A stretch of 44,116 nt of DNA, taken from IMG/VR virus record IMGVR_UViG_3300047557_002997, positions 1 through 44,116 of that record; one strand, written 5' to 3'. This DNA comes from a virus. Position numbers and translations under genes: made by a program. Below the pieces are notes generated by a model that made no database searches, was not told the origin of the DNA, and saw only the letters and a list, made by a program, of their open reading frames with translations. Of this stretch, positions 31,487 through 44,116 are shown in pieces; positions within the stretch are counted from its first letter, which is position 1; every line of letters begins with the position of its first letter.

Positions 31487-33427
31487 ATGCCAAAAATCAA
31501 GTCGCATAGAACAGTTGAGCAAATTGCAAAGAAGCATCGCCTTGATGTTTCTTTTATACAAAAGCAACTTGATATGGGTGAACCCATTGAGCATGAACAT
31601 ACCAAAGATCATGATTTAGCAAAGGATATTGCTCTTCAACATTTAGATGAAATTCCAGATTATTATACTCGTTTGAAAAAAATGGAAGCAGACGCCAAAA
31701 AGCATCATAAAAAGTTTAAGGATGTGAAAGAAGAAACTAAATCTGGAGATGAAGGTCTTCACGATTGGTTTAATAAGTCTAAATCCAGTGATGGCAAGAA
31801 AGGGTGGGTTCAACTTGGCGGAAAATGGGCAGGAAAACCATGTGCTCGTCAACCAGGACAAACTTCAACACCAAAGTGTGGAAGTTCTAAAATGTCAGCA
31901 AATCTTTCTCCAGAGGAAGAAGAAAGATCAAGAGCAAGAAAAAACAGACAAGATCCAAATCAACCACAAAAAACCGGTGCAGCAAAACCAACAAACGTTA
32001 GAACTGAAGAAATGGACTTACAAGAAGTAAAAGACAAACCAAGCAAAGGTAGTGGTAAAAAAGATGCTTGCTACAATAAAGTAAAGTCTCGCTACAGCGT
32101 TTGGCCTAGTGCATATGCGTCTGGAGCACTTGTAAAATGTCGTAAGGTTGGTGCTGCTAACTGGGGAACTAAATCGGAGGAAACTATGCACGAAGAAGAA
32201 AGATATTGTCCTTTGTGTGATAAAAGAGAAACTAGATCCGAATGTTCTTATGGAGAAAAGGCATGGGATAAAGTTTCTGTAAAAGACGAAGAATATTCAA
32301 TGGTTAGATCTGAACTAAAAACAATTGTAAATGCAGTAAAGAGACTTCAGGCAAAAGTTGGTGAAGGTGAGGGAAATCTTGAGGCATGGGTTCAATCAAA
32401 AATTACTAAAGCAGCAGACTATATTGACACTGCCGCAGACTATGTTGCAAGTGGAGAAATGGAAGAGGGTATAAGTTTTGAAGTAGATCCTAAAGATATT
32501 AGAAAATCTAAACGTTCTACAAGTATTAGAAATCTTTCTCAGCATGGTGCTACTGAAGGAGAACAACAAGCAGCACAGCGTAAAAGAAAAGAACCTAAAA
32601 TGCCTTTAGTAAAAAGAGGTGATACTTATATTAGAAACATAAATGCCGAATACGAACCATCCATGGTAGATAAAATTTTATCAGAACTTGAAGAAAATGG
32701 TCCATGTTGGAAAGGTTATAAAAGAAAAAAAGGAACTGCAAAGTTTTCTCCGGGTTCATGTGTAAAAGCAGAAAACGTAACCATCGAAGATGCAGATGGC
32801 AATACGTTTGCTGAAGTTATTAATTTGATCGAACCAGAACCAATCAAAGGATTTAAGTCTCAAGTAGATGAGGCAACAAGACTTCAAGCGCAAACAGGCA
32901 ACGTGATTGCTGTTACTCTTTCTTGGAGAGGAAAATATTATTCTATGAAGATGTTCTTTCCACAGTTGAAGACACCATCAAGAAAAGAAATCAATGATGA
33001 ACTCCAAAAGGTTTACCCCGGATCAATAGTTGTTTATCATTCAATTTCTGAAATTCAACCAGGACAACCATTAATTCAAGCATTTGGTCCTCAAGGTGGA
33101 AGTTCTGCTAAACCAGGACCAAGTAAAAGTTATGTGAGACCTATGGGAGAAGAGGTTAAGATTGATGAAGACTGGCAAAAAGTAAATCGTCGTGATAAAA
33201 CTGACGGTCTGAGTCAAAAAGCAGTAAATGCTTATCGTCGCGAGAATCCTGGTTCAAAACTACAAACTGCAGTAACCGAAAAAAATCCATCTGGCAAAAG
33301 AGCACAAAGGAGAAAGAACTTTTGTAGTCGTATGTCTGGAATGAAGAAAAGACTAACATCTGCAGAAACTGCAAGAGATCCGGATTCAAGAATCAATAAA
33401 GCACTTCGTCGTTGGAATTGTAATTAA
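31487..33427 (+). CDS. Patchwork multi-domain protein (DUF5661, DUF5872, zinc-binding, DUF6321-like), 646 aa
   Basis: This hydrophilic protein is a string of small phage domains. Residues 1-72 (HRTVEQIAKKHRLDVSFIQK) resemble DUF5661. About 90-165 (LHDWFNKSKSSDGKKGWVQL, CGSSKMS) resemble DUF5872. About 192-228 (KDACYNKVKSRYSVWPSAYA) is a common phage motif. 240-265 (YCPLCDKRETRSEC) is Cys-rich. About 268-325 includes LEAWVQSKITKAADYID. About 390-430 includes GPCWKGYKRKKG. About 460-530 matches a segment of the protein at 40390. The end (DGLSQKAVNAYRREN, RDPDSRINKALRRWNC) resembles DUF6321. Domain names are from memory. No enzyme motif is apparent. It lies between gp16 and gp17, so a packaging, virion or processing role is possible. 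Confidence 0.78.
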   Translation: MPKIKSHRTVEQIAKKHRLDVSFIQKQLDMGEPIEHEHTKDHDLAKDIALQHLDEIPDYYTRLKKMEADAKKHHKKFKDVKEETKSGDEGLHDWFNKSKSSDGKKGWVQLGGKWAGKPCARQPGQTSTPKCGSSKMSANLSPEEEERSRARKNRQDPNQPQKTGAAKPTNVRTEEMDLQEVKDKPSKGSGKKDACYNKVKSRYSVWPSAYASGALVKCRKVGAANWGTKSEETMHEEERYCPLCDKRETRSECSYGEKAWDKVSVKDEEYSMVRSELKTIVNAVKRLQAKVGEGEGNLEAWVQSKITKAADYIDTAADYVASGEMEEGISFEVDPKDIRKSKRSTSIRNLSQHGATEGEQQAAQRKRKEPKMPLVKRGDTYIRNINAEYEPSMVDKILSELEENGPCWKGYKRKKGTAKFSPGSCVKAENVTIEDADGNTFAEVINLIEPEPIKGFKSQVDEATRLQAQTGNVIAVTLSWRGKYYSMKMFFPQLKTPSRKEINDELQKVYPGSIVVYHSISEIQPGQPLIQAFGPQGGSSAKPGPSKSYVRPMGEEVKIDEDWQKVNRRDKTDGLSQKAVNAYRRENPGSKLQTAVTEKNPSGKRAQRRKNFCSRMSGMKKRLTSAETARDPDSRINKALRRWNCN

Positions 33428-38511: not shown

Positions 38512-40200
38512 ATGGCGAAACTTTTTGGTTTTTCGATTGAAGATAACGAACCATTATCTCCCGGTGTTGTTTCCCCCGTTCCTCCAAATAAGGAGGACGG
38601 GGTTGACCATTACCTGAGTAGTGGTTTTTTTGGTTCGTATGTAGATATTGAAGGAGTATATAGAACTGAATTTGATCTCATCAAAAGATATCGTGAAATG
38701 GCACTTCATCCAGAGTGTGATAGTGCTATTGAAGATATTGTAAATGAGGCAATCGTATCAGATACTAATGATAGTCCTGTTCAGATTGATTTGGATAATC
38801 TGAATGCGAGTGATGGTATTAAAAAGAAGATTAGACAAGAATTCAAGTATATATTAGAACTTCTAGATTTTGATAAGAAGTCGCATGAAATTTATAGAAA
38901 CTGGTATGTAGATGGAAGACTTTACTACCATAAGGTTGTAGATCTTAAAAATCCTGAAGCAGGAATACAAGAACTGAGATACATTGACGCAATGAAAATG
39001 CGTTATGTTCGTCAAGCAATTAAAAAGGAAGATAACAAATATAGAGTTTCAAATCGAAATGTTGATAATCCAATGGATTATGATTTTCCAGAAATTGATG
39101 AATACTTCATTTATGAACCAAAAATGACCTATCCAACAGGAACTCCAGCTCCTGGAACATTGGGTGGTTCAAATTCTGGCATCAAGATGACAAAGGATTC
39201 GATCACTTATTGCACGTCCGGCCTTGTAGACCGAAATAAGGGATCAACTCTTTCATATCTTCACAAGGCAATTAAATCTCTCAATCAACTCCGTATGATT
39301 GAGGACTCTTTAGTCATCTATCGTCTTTCTCGCGCACCAGAAAGAAGAATTTTCTATATTGATGTTGGTAATCTGCCAAAGATTAAAGCAGAGCAATACC
39401 TCCGTGATGTGATGATGCGTTATCGCAACAAACAAGTTTATGATGCAAGTACCGGAGAAATACGCGATGACAAAAAGTTTATGGCAATGTTAGAGGATTT
39501 TTGGTTGCCAAGAAGAGAGGGTGGTAGAGGAACCGAAATATCTACACTTCCTGGTGGACAAAATCTTGGAGAAATTACCGATATTAATTATTTTCAAGAA
39601 AAACTTTATAGGTCTTTAAATGTTCCAACAACAAGAATTGGTGGAGATGGTGGATTTAATCTTGGTCGTTCATCAGAAATTCTGAGAGATGAAGTCAAAT
39701 TTAGTAAGTTTGTTGCTCGTTTGAGAAAGAGATTCTCATATATGTTTAGCGATATGTTGAGAACTCAATTGATTCTCAAAAATATCATTACACCAGAAGA
39801 TTGGTCGAGGATGGATGAACATATTCAATATGATTTCTTATATGATAATCATTTTGCAGAACTTAAGGATGCCGAATTACTTAACGAGAGATTGAATATG
39901 GTTCAAATTGCAGAACCTTATGTTGGAAGATATTTCTCTCAAGATTATATAAGAAGAAAGGTTTTAAGGCAAACTGATGTTGAAATCTTAGAACAAGATG
40001 CGCTCATTAAAAAAGAAATTGATGAAGGAATTATTCCCGATCCTAATCAACCTATTGATCCACAAACTGGATTACCTCTTGACCAAACTTCTCAAATGGA
40101 TCTGGGTCAACCGGCAATGGAACCTGATTTAAGATCTCAAGAAAAAGCAACCGAAGTTAATGCTAAAGCAATAGAAATGCCCAAGGGTGGTGAGATATAA
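38512..40200 (+). CDS. 20: Portal vertex protein gp20
   Basis: The protein has 562 residues (T4: 524) and shows the conserved portal pattern: YVDIEGVYRTEFDLIKRYRE, MALHPECDSAIEDIVNEAIV, RNWYVDGRLYYHKVV, YRLSRAPERRIFYIDVGNLP and RMDEHIQYDFLYDNHFAELK. gp20 forms the twelve-fold ring at the head vertex, starts prohead assembly and acts as the terminase docking site. The C-terminal tail is rich in Pro, Asp and Gln (IPDPNQPIDPQTGLPL). This gene is the standard diversity marker for cyanomyoviruses. A strong hairpin lies in codons 21-31. The TAA is inside the next late promoter. Confidence 0.96.
   Translation: MAKLFGFSIEDNEPLSPGVVSPVPPNKEDGVDHYLSSGFFGSYVDIEGVYRTEFDLIKRYREMALHPECDSAIEDIVNEAIVSDTNDSPVQIDLDNLNASDGIKKKIRQEFKYILELLDFDKKSHEIYRNWYVDGRLYYHKVVDLKNPEAGIQELRYIDAMKMRYVRQAIKKEDNKYRVSNRNVDNPMDYDFPEIDEYFIYEPKMTYPTGTPAPGTLGGSNSGIKMTKDSITYCTSGLVDRNKGSTLSYLHKAIKSLNQLRMIEDSLVIYRLSRAPERRIFYIDVGNLPKIKAEQYLRDVMMRYRNKQVYDASTGEIRDDKKFMAMLEDFWLPRREGGRGTEISTLPGGQNLGEITDINYFQEKLYRSLNVPTTRIGGDGGFNLGRSSEILRDEVKFSKFVARLRKRFSYMFSDMLRTQLILKNIITPEDWSRMDEHIQYDFLYDNHFAELKDAELLNERLNMVQIAEPYVGRYFSQDYIRRKVLRQTDVEILEQDALIKKEIDEGIIPDPNQPIDPQTGLPLDQTSQMDLGQPAMEPDLRSQEKATEVNAKAIEMPKGGEI
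38574..38602 (+). other. Strong hairpin in the 5' coding part of gp20
   Basis: CCCCGT (38574-38579) pairs with ACGGGG (38597-38602), and CCTCC (38581-38585) pairs with GGAGG (38592-38596), with one bulged T at 38580 and a 6-nt loop AAATAA. Eleven base pairs, most of them GC, are unusual in this AT-rich region. The 3' arm hides a ribosome-site-like AAGGAGG, but no good start codon follows it. Confidence 0.7.
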
Positions 40201-40231: not shown

Positions 40232-40393
40232 ATGGATGATTTACTGGATATGATTGCTACTGACGAATCACCTTCGCAGATCAGTGATAAAATCAAGGAT
40301 CTTTTGTTTACTAAAGCAGCAGAAAAAATTGATGATTTTCGTCCTGCCGTAGCAAATTCAATGTTTAATAGCGAAACAGAAGAGGAAGAATGA
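40232..40393 (+). CDS. 67: Prohead core protein, gp67-like, 53 aa
   Basis: The ATG at 40232 opens a 53-codon frame that ends in a run of acidic residues (SETEEEE). The N-terminal half DDLLDMIATDESPSQISDKI and a central FTKAAEKIDDFRPAVANSMF match the pattern of T4 gp67, which is 80 residues, helical at first and highly acidic at the end, and lies directly after gp20. gp67 is a small component of the prohead core that is degraded by the gp21 protease. The placement after gp20 supports the call more than the sequence does. The end overlaps the next ATG by 4 nt (ATGA). Confidence 0.7.
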   Translation: MDDLLDMIATDESPSQISDKIKDLLFTKAAEKIDDFRPAVANSMFNSETEEEE

Positions 40394-40710
40394 AATCTTT
40401 TAAGCAGTTCATCTCAGAGTCTGTAAATATTTCTGGAGACTTTACCGGAAATCTTTACATTAATTCCTCTCAACCAGAGCAACAATCGGTTGGTGAGGAA
40501 TATGTTGCAGATGTCCTGTGGAACGGAAGTCTTTATAGAATGGAATTAGTTACTAAAAACGGAATTCCTTCTCCGAGAGATCTTGGTGAACAACTACAGT
40601 CTAATTATCCAGGAGCGGTTGTTCATCAGATTTACCCAGTTACTGAAAAGAATTTAAACATTAAAAACGCACAAAGATACCACCCATCAAAGTTGGAATG
40701 GATTGATTAA
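40390..40710 (+). CDS. Core-like protein with capsid-targeting-like N-terminus, 106 aa
   Basis: The ATG at 40390 overlaps the gp67-like stop by 4 nt. The N-terminus MKSFKQFISESVNISGD resembles the capsid targeting sequence of T4 internal proteins (consensus of the MKTYQEFIAEA type), which ends at an I-x-E cleavage site of the gp21 protease; here I-S-E at residues 8-10 fits. Residues about 34-87 (YVADVLWNGSLYRMELV, then LGEQLQSNYPGAVVHQIYPV) match a segment of the 646-aa protein at 31487. In T4, gp68 follows gp67; homology to gp68 is not clear to me. It may be a packaged internal or core protein. Confidence 0.72.
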   Translation: MKSFKQFISESVNISGDFTGNLYINSSQPEQQSVGEEYVADVLWNGSLYRMELVTKNGIPSPRDLGEQLQSNYPGAVVHQIYPVTEKNLNIKNAQRYHPSKLEWID

Positions 40711-40712
40711 TA

Positions 40713-42026
40713 ATGGCTCAGTGGAATATTCAAACTCAAGATTATTTAAACCAAGAGAGAAGTCTTTTTGAGATTTTTGGTGCTGCAACTAGAGACGGAA
40801 AAATCGTTGATAATCTCAATAGATTTCCAGTAAGTGTAAATCCAGATGCTTTCGGAAGAACAAGAGTATCAAATCCTCTTACATTATTTGACTCATCTCA
40901 CAGATATAGAGACAATAATCTTTGGGAAAGTTTGATTGTAGGAACTGGTTCTACTGTTGGTTTTGTAACAACTCAAGGATTAATCAATATAGGTATTGGA
41001 ACTACAAGTGGTGATTCAGTTATTAGAGAAACCACTAAAACATTTTCATATCAACCAGGAAAATCTTTACTTGTTTTAAATACTTTTATTCCTGCTACAC
41101 CAAAAACAAACTTAAGGCAAAGAGTTGGATATTTTGGTGCTGATAATGGAATGTATTTTGAGATTAATGGCACGACGCCATATTTTGTAGAAAGAAGTTT
41201 ATCCACTGGGACCGAAACTGCAATTGCACAATCTGATTGGAATATTGATAAATTGGATGGAACCGGAGTTTCTGGTATTACATTAGATATTACCAAAGCA
41301 CAAATTCTTTGGATGGATATTGAGTGGTTGGGTCTCGGATCAGTAAGAATGGGATTTGTAATTGATGGAAAATTTATTCACGCACACTCATTTCACCACG
41401 CAAACTTAATTCAATCAACTTATATCACAACAGCATCTCTTCCTTTAAGGTATGAGATTGCTAATACTGGTATTACAACTAGTTCTAGCACACTCAAACA
41501 AGTTTGCTCTAGTGTAATTTCAGAAGGTGGTTATGAATTGAGAGGATTGCAGCAGGCAGTAAATACACCAATTACAGCACCAGTAGATTTACCAACTCCT
41601 GCCGGAACTTATTATCCTGTTCTTTCTATTCGTCTCAAATCTTCCCCAAATAGATTGGATGCAATTGTAATTTTGACCGCGCTTTCATTAATGGGGACTG
41701 GAAATGGACCACAATACAATTGGCAGGTGAGAGCATCAGCAACTACTACTGGTGGAAATTGGGTAAGTGCTGGTGCAGATAGTGCTGTAGAATATAAAAT
41801 TGATGGAGGAACTGTAAGTGGAGGAAGAATATTAGCATCCGGTTTCTTCACATCAGCAAATCAATCTTCTTCATCAGTTGATATTCTGAAAGAAGCACTA
41901 TTTAAGTTCCAGTTAGAAAGAAATGGATTAACTGGAACACCTTATGAATTAACACTAGTAGTTGCATCTGATACTGCTGGTGCTGATGTTTTTGCTTCAT
42001 TAGATTGGGAAGAAATTAGTAGGTAA
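40713..42026 (+). CDS. Virion structural protein in the head block, 437 aa
   Basis: The ATG at 40713 follows the previous stop by 2 nt. The N-terminal half has segments that I recall from structural proteins of many marine phages: FGRTRVSNPLTLFDSSHRYR, GYFGADNGMYFEINGT, LWMDIEWLGLGSVRMGFVID and HAHSFHHANLIQSTYITT. The C-terminal half is beta-rich. There is no signal or membrane segment. In T4 no gene of this kind lies between gp20 and gp21. The location suggests a head surface or head-fibre protein; a tail role cannot be excluded. Short reverse-strand frames at 41051 and 41612 are shadows. Confidence 0.78.
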   Translation: MAQWNIQTQDYLNQERSLFEIFGAATRDGKIVDNLNRFPVSVNPDAFGRTRVSNPLTLFDSSHRYRDNNLWESLIVGTGSTVGFVTTQGLINIGIGTTSGDSVIRETTKTFSYQPGKSLLVLNTFIPATPKTNLRQRVGYFGADNGMYFEINGTTPYFVERSLSTGTETAIAQSDWNIDKLDGTGVSGITLDITKAQILWMDIEWLGLGSVRMGFVIDGKFIHAHSFHHANLIQSTYITTASLPLRYEIANTGITTSSSTLKQVCSSVISEGGYELRGLQQAVNTPITAPVDLPTPAGTYYPVLSIRLKSSPNRLDAIVILTALSLMGTGNGPQYNWQVRASATTTGGNWVSAGADSAVEYKIDGGTVSGGRILASGFFTSANQSSSSVDILKEALFKFQLERNGLTGTPYELTLVVASDTAGADVFASLDWEEISR

Positions 42027-42067: not shown

Positions 42068-42619
42068 ATGGCTCATAGACCAGTTGGGGCGGGTTCCTCA
42101 TTTACATTTACTGCAGGTGCTGCAACAACTTCATCTGCTTTTACAGTACAATCTAGTGTTTTGAGAGTAGTTGCAGTTGGTGGTTCTGCCCACGTTGCAA
42201 TTGGAGTTACTCCTGCAGCAACTAATACCGATTATTATGTTCCCGCAGGTGACACGGTAACTTTAGGATTAACTAGAGCATCGAATAGAGTTGTTGGAGT
42301 AACAACAGGAACAACAACAATTGTTACTGTTCCAGAAGGAACTCAGGTTCCATTTGCAGTTGGTGATTACGTAACTCTTACTGCTACTGGTCAGTCATAT
42401 TATAACTTTACACACCAACAAGTTTTATCAATTAATACCACTGCAGGTGTTGATGGATATTTCTCGACAAGAATGACTATTAATTATAATTCAAGTGGAA
42501 TTATAACTGCTTTCTCATCAACAGATTCATCAGTTGTTGTTTCTAATAAGATTTCTGCATATGGAGTCGGATCAGGAACACTTCACTTCCAACAAGTACA
42601 AATTACAGGACAGGCATAA
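42068..42619 (+). CDS. Beta-rich virion protein in the head block, 183 aa
   Basis: The protein begins MAHRPVGAGSSFTFTAGAAT and includes SSVLRVVAVGGSAHVAIGVT and YYVPAGDTVTLGLTRASNRV, with a YYNF and FHFQQ-type close. It is small, beta-rich, Gly/Ser/Thr-rich and lacks Cys. I recall similar proteins in cyanophage head regions. A capsid-decoration or head-fibre role would fit; this is inference from the placement with gp21 and gp22. The stop overlaps the gp21 start by one base. Confidence 0.75.
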   Translation: MAHRPVGAGSSFTFTAGAATTSSAFTVQSSVLRVVAVGGSAHVAIGVTPAATNTDYYVPAGDTVTLGLTRASNRVVGVTTGTTTIVTVPEGTQVPFAVGDYVTLTATGQSYYNFTHQQVLSINTTAGVDGYFSTRMTINYNSSGIITAFSSTDSSVVVSNKISAYGVGSGTLHFQQVQITGQA

Positions 42620-43269
42620 TGAAACTCATTACCGAAGAAATCGAATCAGTAGAAGTTCTTACCGAAACGGTCAACGGTAAGAAGACTCTGTATATTCGAG
42701 GTCCTTTCCTACAAACTGAACAACCCAATCGCAATAACAGGATATATCGTATGCCTGTTATGGAAAGAGAGGTAAAGCGTTATACTGAACAGTATGTAAA
42801 TAAAGGCCGTGCTCTTGGTGAACTTGGTCATCCTGATGGACCTACTGTAAATCTTGATAGAGTTTCTCATAAGATTGTTGAACTCGTTCAAAGAGGAAAC
42901 GATTTTATTGGTAAGGCACAAATTCTTTCTACACCAATGGGCAAAATTGCAGAGTCACTTCTCAAAGAAGGAGTAACTCTTGGTGTTTCTTCTCGTGGTA
43001 TTGGATCGGTAAGACCAACAAAAGAAGGATACAATGAAGTTGGCGAAGACTTCATGCTTGCAACTGCTGCTGATATTGTTGCCGATCCATCTGCACCTGA
43101 TGCTTTTGTTCAGGGAATTATGGAAGGAAAGGAGTGGGTATGGGATGGAGGAATGCTTCGCGAAAAAATCGCAGAGCAAACTCAAAAAAGAATCAATACC
43201 CTTGTAGATGAAAAACTTCTTGAGGAGTATAAATTGAGTTTATTTAATGAGTTTTTAAATTCATTGTAA
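42619..43269 (+). CDS. 21: Prohead core scaffold protease gp21
   Basis: Length 216, like T4 gp21 (212). The serine protease residues are visible: His71 in GELGHPDG and the Ser pair at 124-125 in GVSSRGIG, corresponding to the T4 His/Ser active site. A conserved acidic region ADIVADPSAPDAFVQGIMEG follows. The end is helical (KRINTLVDEKLLEEYKLSLF) as needed for core binding. It degrades the scaffold and trims capsid proteins at I/L-x-E sites once the prohead is complete. It is coupled to the preceding gene by TAATG. Confidence 0.95.
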   Translation: MKLITEEIESVEVLTETVNGKKTLYIRGPFLQTEQPNRNNRIYRMPVMEREVKRYTEQYVNKGRALGELGHPDGPTVNLDRVSHKIVELVQRGNDFIGKAQILSTPMGKIAESLLKEGVTLGVSSRGIGSVRPTKEGYNEVGEDFMLATAADIVADPSAPDAFVQGIMEGKEWVWDGGMLREKIAEQTQKRINTLVDEKLLEEYKLSLFNEFLNSL

Positions 43270-43325: not shown

Positions 43326-44116
43326 ATGTCTCGTGGAGATTTACAAGAAATGGAAGTAGGCACTAAGCAATCCAAAACCGCTGTTAATGCTAACGCCAAA
43401 GCAGCGGATGCAATGCCAAGTCTATCTGGTGCAACACCAGGTCAAACTGCTGGTTGGGAAGATCTTGGTGGCCCTGATCCTTCTAACTATCGCTCAACTG
43501 ACGATTCAGCAAAGCTGAAAACACCTGGCGGATCACTTAAGCAAGTTAAGGATGTTGTTAATAAAGGTGCTTCTGCTGCAGAAGCAATGAAGGGTGTTAA
43601 GGAAGATGAAGAGTTTGAATATGATGAAGATGAAGAACTCTTAGAAGCCGCTAAGGAAGAAGAGGAAGAGGAGGAAAAAGAGGAAGGTAATAAAAAAGGT
43701 AAGAAGGAAGAGGACGAAGACGAAGATGAAGATGAAGAAGAAATGGAAGAAGAGTTTAACATCGATGAAGATGTTAATGCTCTTCTAGAAGGCGAGGAAC
43801 TCTCTGAAGAGTTCCAAGAAAAAGCAAGAACGATTTTCGAAGCTGCTCTTCGCTCTAAGGTTTCTCAAATTCAAGAGGCAATCGAAGAGCAGTATGCAGT
43901 TGCGCTTGCAGAAGAAGTCGAAGAAATTAAGATTGAACTTGCTGAGCGTGTAGATGCGTACCTTGAGTATGTTTCTAGCGAGTGGATGGAAGAAAATGCA
44001 CTCGTTATTGAGCAAGGTCTTAAGACCGAAATGACCGAATCATTCCTCCAAGGAATGAGAGGTCTTTTTGAAGAACATTATGTATCAATCCCTGAAGATA
44101 AATATGATGTGCTTGA
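43326..44116 (+). CDS. 22: Prohead core scaffold protein gp22, 5' part
   Basis: The frame starts at ATG 43326 with CGGAG (43314-43318) upstream and remains open to the last base, so the gene is cut at the window end; 263 full codons are visible (T4 gp22: 269 residues). The first 60 residues are polar, then comes a very acidic tract at about residues 95-150 with long Glu/Asp runs interrupted by KKGKKE. The rest is coiled-coil-like helix (EFQEKARTIFEAALRSKVSQ, IKIELAERVDAYLEYV). This composition is typical for the T4 core scaffold, digested by gp21. It follows gp21, as in T4. Two reverse-strand frames over it are shadows of its biased codons. Confidence 0.92.
   Translation, partial: MSRGDLQEMEVGTKQSKTAVNANAKAADAMPSLSGATPGQTAGWEDLGGPDPSNYRSTDDSAKLKTPGGSLKQVKDVVNKGASAAEAMKGVKEDEEFEYDEDEELLEAAKEEEEEEEKEEGNKKGKKEEDEDEDEDEEEMEEEFNIDEDVNALLEGEELSEEFQEKARTIFEAALRSKVSQIQEAIEEQYAVALAEEVEEIKIELAERVDAYLEYVSSEWMEENALVIEQGLKTEMTESFLQGMRGLFEEHYVSIPEDKYDVL

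Follow-up and report, generated by a model that had tools for sequence, protein, structure and literature searches.

What does the short peptide MKSFKQFISES do at the start of a small cyanophage protein encoded among head genes? The protein lies in the window, as the whole stretch of DNA analysed here is called: a 44-kb virus record (IMG/VR record IMGVR_UViG_3300047557_002997; 44,116 nucleotides), which lacks gp23 and covers a minor part of the phage genome. It belongs to phrog_1742, a family without a described function, and its first residues resemble the capsid targeting sequence (CTS) of phage T4. The analysis presented here makes it quite probable that MKSFKQFISES is a capsid targeting sequence, used in these phages as a detachable tag that loads a changing set of proteins. 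The CTS reading of phrog_1742 is added in this analysis; the use of the CTS by T4-like phages for carrying varied proteins is already stated in the available text of a review (PMC9026906).

The locus and its head-gene neighbours

All window features described here lie on the plus strand. The gp20 portal gene (38512..40200; PF07230, E 2.1e-191) is followed by an ORF of 53 residues with an acidic tail (40232..40393), which matches phrog_14164 (E 9.2e-26, function unknown) and is called gp67-like by position only. Next comes the phrog_1742 gene, with an ATG start and 106 codons for residues (40390..40710; PHROG E 1.4e-38), whose N-terminal CTS-like peptide occupies 40390..40422, with a predicted gp21 cut after E10, between ISE and S. 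Its partner gene encodes a phrog_1645 virion structural protein of 437 residues (40713..42026; E 1e-170), and behind it lie a DUF7243 protein (42068..42619; PF23891, E 2.2e-28), the gp21 prohead protease (Peptidase_S77, 42619..43269; PF03420, E 3.1e-34; phrog_207, head maturation protease) and the gp22 scaffold (43326..44114; PF25623, E 7.4e-46), cut by the window end. The gp21 protein is the presumed processing enzyme and gp22 the presumed core partner of the tag. Farther upstream, a mosaic ORF of 646 residues (31487..33427) matches several phrogs. The gp21 gene is located 2.2 kb downstream of the phrog_1742 ORF, as the first-pass annotation of this DNA had roughly placed it. A ~70% identical relative of the phrog_1645 protein (40713-42026) occurs in Puniceispirillum phage HMO-2011 and is closer than many cyanophage relatives, a sign of gene transfer.

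A purine tract, GAGGAAGA, lies upstream of the phrog_1742 ATG, and the stop codon of the gp67-like ORF overlaps that ATG (ATGA). This overlap and the starts of the relatives described below support MKSFKQFISES as the very beginning of the protein.

Comparison with the T4 capsid targeting sequence

As read from the T4 record, ipII and ipIII start with MKTYQEFIAEA. The window peptide is identical to it at five of 11 positions (M1, K2, F7, I8 and E10) and similar in kind at the other six, which bears out the earlier claim of a shared layout; the start of T4 ipI differs (MKTFKEFTSTTT). According to the available text of a review of T4 work, residues 4 and 7 of IPIII weigh most for targeting and residues 8 and 10 for processing, and the first ten IPIII residues are enough for targeting (PMC9026906). 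The window peptide carries the residue classes named at these four positions, with aromatic F4 and F7 for targeting and I8 with E10, the I-x-E site pointed out previously, for gp21 processing. The likeness to the IPII/IPIII propeptide therefore comprises the position at Met1, the ten-residue length, the aromatic at position 4, F7, I8 and E10, and a gp21-type protease encoded by the same phage 2.2 kb away. The two systems differ in that the window peptide sits on an unrelated acidic cyanophage protein, for which targeting and cleavage are predicted, and in that some phrog_1742 relatives have M at position 8. Furthermore, T4 internal proteins are described as basic (PMC9026906, available text), whereas the mature window protein, of 96 residues, is acidic (pI 5.0). 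Another parallel is offered by the capsid signal of P1 DarB, likewise an N-terminal signal routing a virion protein to the head, which is longer than nine residues and, in the available text, belongs to Dar proteins without a consensus (PMC9024508). The first-pass annotation had also stated that this mechanism is not commonly assigned in cyanophages, and within the accessible text of the open-licence literature searched no such assignment was found: where 'capsid targeting' and 'cyanophage' co-occurred there, 'cyanophage' stood in the reference list only. Nor did experiments on targeting or cleavage in cyanophages turn up in the text covered.

For counting, a strict pattern was defined as M-K-x-[FY]-x-x-[FL]-[ILVMF]-x-E. 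It matches the window once, against 0.01 matches expected, and one of 100 dinucleotide shuffles contained a match; a similar six-frame scan of the window found no second CTS-like place. The single match against this expectation and the likeness to T4 together indicate more than chance.

The start is also conserved within the family. When relatives were collected with a bait restricted to the protein body (residues 35-106), the motif stood at an in-frame start in 80 of 80 phrog_1742 loci (the best 80 of 398), with F/Y4 and F7 in all 80. This search replaced counts from 97 distinct relatives, some of them selected by motif, in which F7 and E10 are invariant, position 4 is F or Y throughout, and position 8 is I in 80, L in 13 and M in four. 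The four M8 relatives, among them the S-SCSM1 homologue, fall outside the L/I-x-E rule of T4. Residue class is kept in the family at all four positions singled out for T4. Conservation extends beyond the cut site (N13, I14, G16), and positions 3, 6 and 9 are also nearly fixed, so family conservation alone cannot single out the CTS positions.

Recurrence of the tag on unrelated proteins

Since gp23 and most of the genome are absent from the window, genes with the same start were sought in relatives. This search, suggested by the first-pass annotation as a check, gave 21 strict-pattern matches in ten T4-like genomes, nine of which have matches; five of the 21 are phrog_1742. S-PM2, a T4-like phage, has no strict-pattern match, P-SSM2 has two, and S-CREM2 and S-SZBM1 together have three. 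Two of the 21 (S-SRM01 122197 and Sf-FS3 143465) were seen without a gene start and may be due to chance. The tagged genes include ipII, ipIII and 61.1 of T4, the NMNAT gene of S-SCSM1 and cytidyltransferase genes of S-SRM01, Syn33 and P-SSM2; the others are hypothetical. T4 gene 61.1 (NC_000866, 18966-19130), annotated as hypothetical, has the CTS-like start MKTFKEFIKED.

A motif this short might arise by chance or from a translation-start preference for MK plus aromatics, with no role in the head. The empty S-PM2 genome and two matches lacking an annotated gene start among the 16 found in six whole genomes are in line with such an origin. Those 16 matches compare with 0 for the reversed pattern, in a sample in which five of the six genomes had been chosen for carrying phrog_1742. 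In eight T4-like genomes, 19 matches (14 without phrog_1742) stand against a mean of 0.77 when the key positions were permuted (sd 1.04, maximum 7, n=236 versions), and three non-T4 genomes (phiKZ, SPO1 and S-CBWM1) gave no match, with one reversed-pattern match in phiKZ. In addition, the tag recurs in two enzyme families that were searched without the motif. Among NMNAT relatives retrieved through patterns outside the N-terminus (49 loci found, two without a start left out), F7, L8 and E10 are present in 47 of 47 and F/Y4 in 41 of 47. Among SAM lyase relatives found with a body-only bait (the best 80 of 459, three of the 80 dropped because the 5' end was cut), 68 of 77 carry a CTS-like core, and most of the nine others are near variants such as MKTYKKFIEDIQES. 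Taken with the S-CREM2 virion detection described below, these results leave chance or start preference very improbable.

A wider view was obtained with MK[ST][FY]x[QE]F[ILM]xE, which occurs at 353 places in 341 loci, in 295 distinct reading frames; those of at least 30 residues form 99 clusters, in loci mostly chosen by family or motif and with not every place checked as a gene start. Twenty hand-picked tagged proteins (16 metagenomic, three from S-CREM2 and one from S-SCSM1) were searched against Pfam. Eight reached the cut-off: two SAM lyases, two DUF6267 proteins and one each of cytidylyltransferase-like, lytic transglycosylase, GNAT acetyltransferase and ADP-ribosyltransferase families. 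For three, one of them S-CREM2 gp14 with its hits to kinase families, all matches stayed below threshold. The remaining nine, S-SCSM1 ORF91 and the Cas9-annotated S-CREM2 gp12 being two of them, had no Pfam match at E 0.01.

Several observations were made alongside these searches. The SAM lyases from virus contigs (PF23780; locus L174, 1353-1838, and loci L561-L640) are candidate anti-restriction enzymes delivered with the DNA. By eye, the tag is followed directly by a second short module, AxxxGLxxxGxGxWxDxxG, in NMNAT-like proteins as well as in the S-CREM2 kinase (L353:8819-10045, L414:10582-12846 and L236:2333-3490), as if tag and adaptor moved as one unit from enzyme to enzyme. In S-T4 (MH412654, 98932-100044, minus strand), the annotated start may miss 20 codons, and the upstream ATG would yield the tag-like MKNFLAFITEAS.

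Tagged proteins in virion proteomes

An association between tag and virion was examined in S-CREM2 with the strict pattern, which was already in use before this genome was examined. Of 219 annotated CDS, 218 were included (gp131 was left out), 52 of which belong to the virion proteome as published in the available text (PMC10665884). The strict motif stands on three annotated CDS, and all three are virion-detected in that proteome (Fisher p 0.013): gp6, a SAM hydrolase in the paper and of the SAM lyase family in Pfam; gp14, an APH/ChoK-like kinase; and gp154, a cytidylyltransferase. For gp14 a GTG start was read as M, so that only gp6 and gp154 match the DNA pattern. These are the three 'regulatory' virion proteins of that paper, whose authors allow, in the text available, that carry-over may contribute to virion detection (PMC10665884). 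Broader cores gave 4/4 and 5/6 virion-detected proteins (p 0.003 each), having been defined after the N-termini were seen. The earlier proposal that the peptide behaves like a CTS is therefore strengthened: it is conserved, it starts many unrelated proteins of T4-like phages, and the S-CREM2 proteins that carry it are among those published as virion-detected.

Alternatively, the motif might be no more than the site of gp21 cleavage and the flanks usual for it, targeting being done by the rest of the protein. FxxF[IL]xE is also found at the T4 gp23 cut, where AFGSFLTEAE lies around residue 65 at the propeptide end according to the literature text available, and this stretch is close to the start of the S-CREM2 cytidylyltransferase, NFSSFLTEAD. 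The bare L/I-x-E triplet, however, was not a significant predictor of published S-CREM2 virion detection (7/19, p 0.13). Moreover, the first ten residues agree while the bodies differ across the 99 clusters, whose loci had for the most part been selected by family or motif, and for IPIII of T4 the ten N-terminal residues suffice (PMC9026906). A pure cleavage site is accordingly considered unlikely.

In other phages, the S-SCSM1 NMNAT, which starts with MKSFLQFLKEA, is virion-detected (PMC9602691, available text), and the cytidylyltransferase of S-SZBM1, which starts with the near variant MRFRQFIIEA, is among the listed virion proteins (PMC9146016, available text). The sole strict match in S-SZBM1 is phrog_1742. 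Whether such NMNAT-like virion enzymes are packaged or carried over is left open in the available text of both PMC9602691 and PMC10665884. In the non-T4 phage S-CBWM1, an NMNAT is said to be in the virion proteome (PMC9602691, available text), and no CTS-like N-terminus was found on it. This is as a T4-specific tag predicts; it also means that an untagged protein can be detected in virions. Taking S-CREM2, S-SCSM1 and S-SZBM1 together, four of six strict-motif proteins are reported in virions in the published data accessible to us, with phrog_1742 at zero of two.

A further S-CREM2 gene (OR473000, 7704-10313, in locus L414) encodes the Cas9-annotated gp12, virion-detected in the published data available. 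Residues 18-26 of gp12, RFASFMAEA, form a CTS-like core; no alternative start was found at the preceding leucine (CTG). Its neighbours gp13 and gp14, also virion-detected there, start CTS-like, and the three genes may form a tagged cargo operon.

The phrog_1742 protein and its fate

The phrog_1742 profile match spans residues 1-100 of the window protein. A tblastn search at E 0.01 found relatives in 135 records, all with cyanophage names, out of 50,697 phage records; the window protein had no Pfam match, and a PDB sequence search gave no meaningful match. An AlphaFold2 model (mean pLDDT 75.5) predicts a helix at residues 4-11, a low-confidence linker at about 12-35 (ten-residue pLDDT means 46 to 71) and a compact domain at about 36-105 built of strands, one helix and strands (block pLDDT means 71 to 95). 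This predicted succession of helix, linker and compact domain is what one would expect of a folded cargo that carries a detachable tag. Homology links residues 32-82 to residues 468-521 of the 646-residue ORF (hhalign E 3.6e-6, probability 87.5), and the body domain recurs in S-SCSM1 ORF29, an annotated virion protein. A fold search of a viral library returned the protein's own cyanophage family and virion proteins holding the same domain.

Related arrangements were seen elsewhere. By eye, the body domain also occurs in S-CREM2 gp137, virion-detected in the published text available (PMC10665884). In Sf-FS3 (PV340856, 111880-112128), a protein of 82 residues has a CTS-like start apparently fused directly to this domain. 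In S-SZBM1, the small protein SSZBM1_192 (MKTFKQYITEA) appears to hold the C-terminal part of the 646-residue ORF behind a tag-like start.

Gene order was surveyed by searching 12 window genes in metagenomic loci holding 134 distinct phrog_1742 gene sequences. The upstream neighbour is the gp67-like ORF in 96 and the 646-residue type or gp16 in 32; six have no upstream neighbour in reach. Downstream, phrog_1645 follows in 118, with none in reach in ten, gp17 in four, and DUF7243 and gp21 in one each; four of the 134 lack a phrog_1645 match despite more than 1,400 bases following. Six named cyanophages were examined: Syn33, S-SRM01, S-T4 and S-SZBM1 have the gene between gp16 and gp17, S-SCSM1 has it two genes before gp17 and behind tail-fibre and virion genes, and Sf-FS3 has it elsewhere. 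Together, the neighbour counts and these positions indicate that phrog_1742 is usually one half of a two-gene cassette found in at least two places among the head genes. The first-pass annotation had named it a prohead-core gene. Its position between the gp67-like and gp21 genes in this window does match T4 gp68, but descent from gp68 is not supported: the protein belongs to phrog_1742, four of the six named cyanophages place the gene between gp16 and gp17, and identity with gp68 was rejected for lack of similarity (hhalign probability 0.1, one T4 sequence).

The T4 core components gp67, gp68 and gp22 are destroyed by gp21 during maturation. The window protein might share that fate, being a genuine core-targeted gp21 substrate of scaffold type from which nothing is delivered; destruction could proceed through another conserved L-x-E triplet within the domain, L65 to E67 (E67 codon, 40588..40590), a candidate gp21 site. 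The triplet is nearly invariant (of 55 aligned sequences, all have L65 and 54 have E67), the protein is acidic with a pI of about 5, and the gp67-like gene adjoins in 96 of the 134 metagenomic relatives. Neither of two virion proteomes, in the published form available, reports a phrog_1742 protein. That of S-SZBM1 is absent from the list of 30 virion proteins in the accessible text (PMC9146016), and that of S-SCSM1, a homologue with M8 and thus without a strict L/I-x-E, is labelled hypothetical rather than virion in the genome record of that phage, for which 45 virion proteins were detected. Tryptic peptides of usable length (7-30 residues) number six in the S-SZBM1 homologue and two in the S-SCSM1 one. 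According to the published data available, detection in these phages extended to proteins as small as 87 to 93 residues, and the absence is therefore not accounted for by size alone. On the other side, the helix of the domain that contains the second triplet is predicted with confidence, and the triplet may be conserved for the sake of folding; the 646-residue ORF has I-N-D at this place in its homologous domain (one sequence), and in the four named cyanophages with the gp16-gp17 placement the gene lies away from the core genes. Degradation as a core component is a real possibility, at somewhat less than even chances.

Fold searches against solved structures returned weak neighbours only. T7 Gp2 and YkzG represent an RNA-polymerase-binding fold. 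With VIA-align, T7 Gp2 came first against the body domain (Z 4.8, 50 residues), with Foldseek rank 5 (E about 1), and YkzG took Foldseek ranks 1 and 4 (E about 1) but only rank 34 in VIA-align (Z 3.5). Similar scores were obtained for many ribosomal proteins, T7 Gp2 and the phrog_1742 protein showed no similarity in sequence, and so weak a fold match is not evidence of function. A virion-delivered regulator of host RNA polymerase, combining a CTS with a Gp2/YkzG-like domain, is a long shot. If that reading were true, phrog_1742 would stand in for T4 Alt, which is said, in the available text, to be absent from cyanomyoviruses (PMC2984593).

Proposed loading mechanism and its implications

The preferred reading, a detachable capsid targeting tag, can be set out as a series of steps. 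We infer that the first ten residues of the peptide would bind a gp22-type prohead core and that this binding would build the phrog_1742 protein into the prohead. The gp21 protease would then cut after E10, freeing an acidic domain protein of 96 residues, and the same tag would load other proteins, among them the NMNAT-like cytidylyltransferase, the SAM lyase and the kinase-like protein. For the window protein, entry into the prohead can be proposed with good confidence and cleavage after E10 is probable, while the chances that it survives in the mature head and is ejected fall just short of even. The proteomes speak rather for persistence where the tagged enzymes are concerned.

A ten-residue head-loading tag gives a mechanism for the metabolic enzymes of these virions, such as NMNAT-like, SAM-degrading and kinase proteins. 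As a sequence rule, it could predict from the genome alone what a T4-like phage carries into its host, and many small unknown genes of marine phages would become testable as delivered effectors. The tag may thus mark the proteins that these viruses bring into the host.
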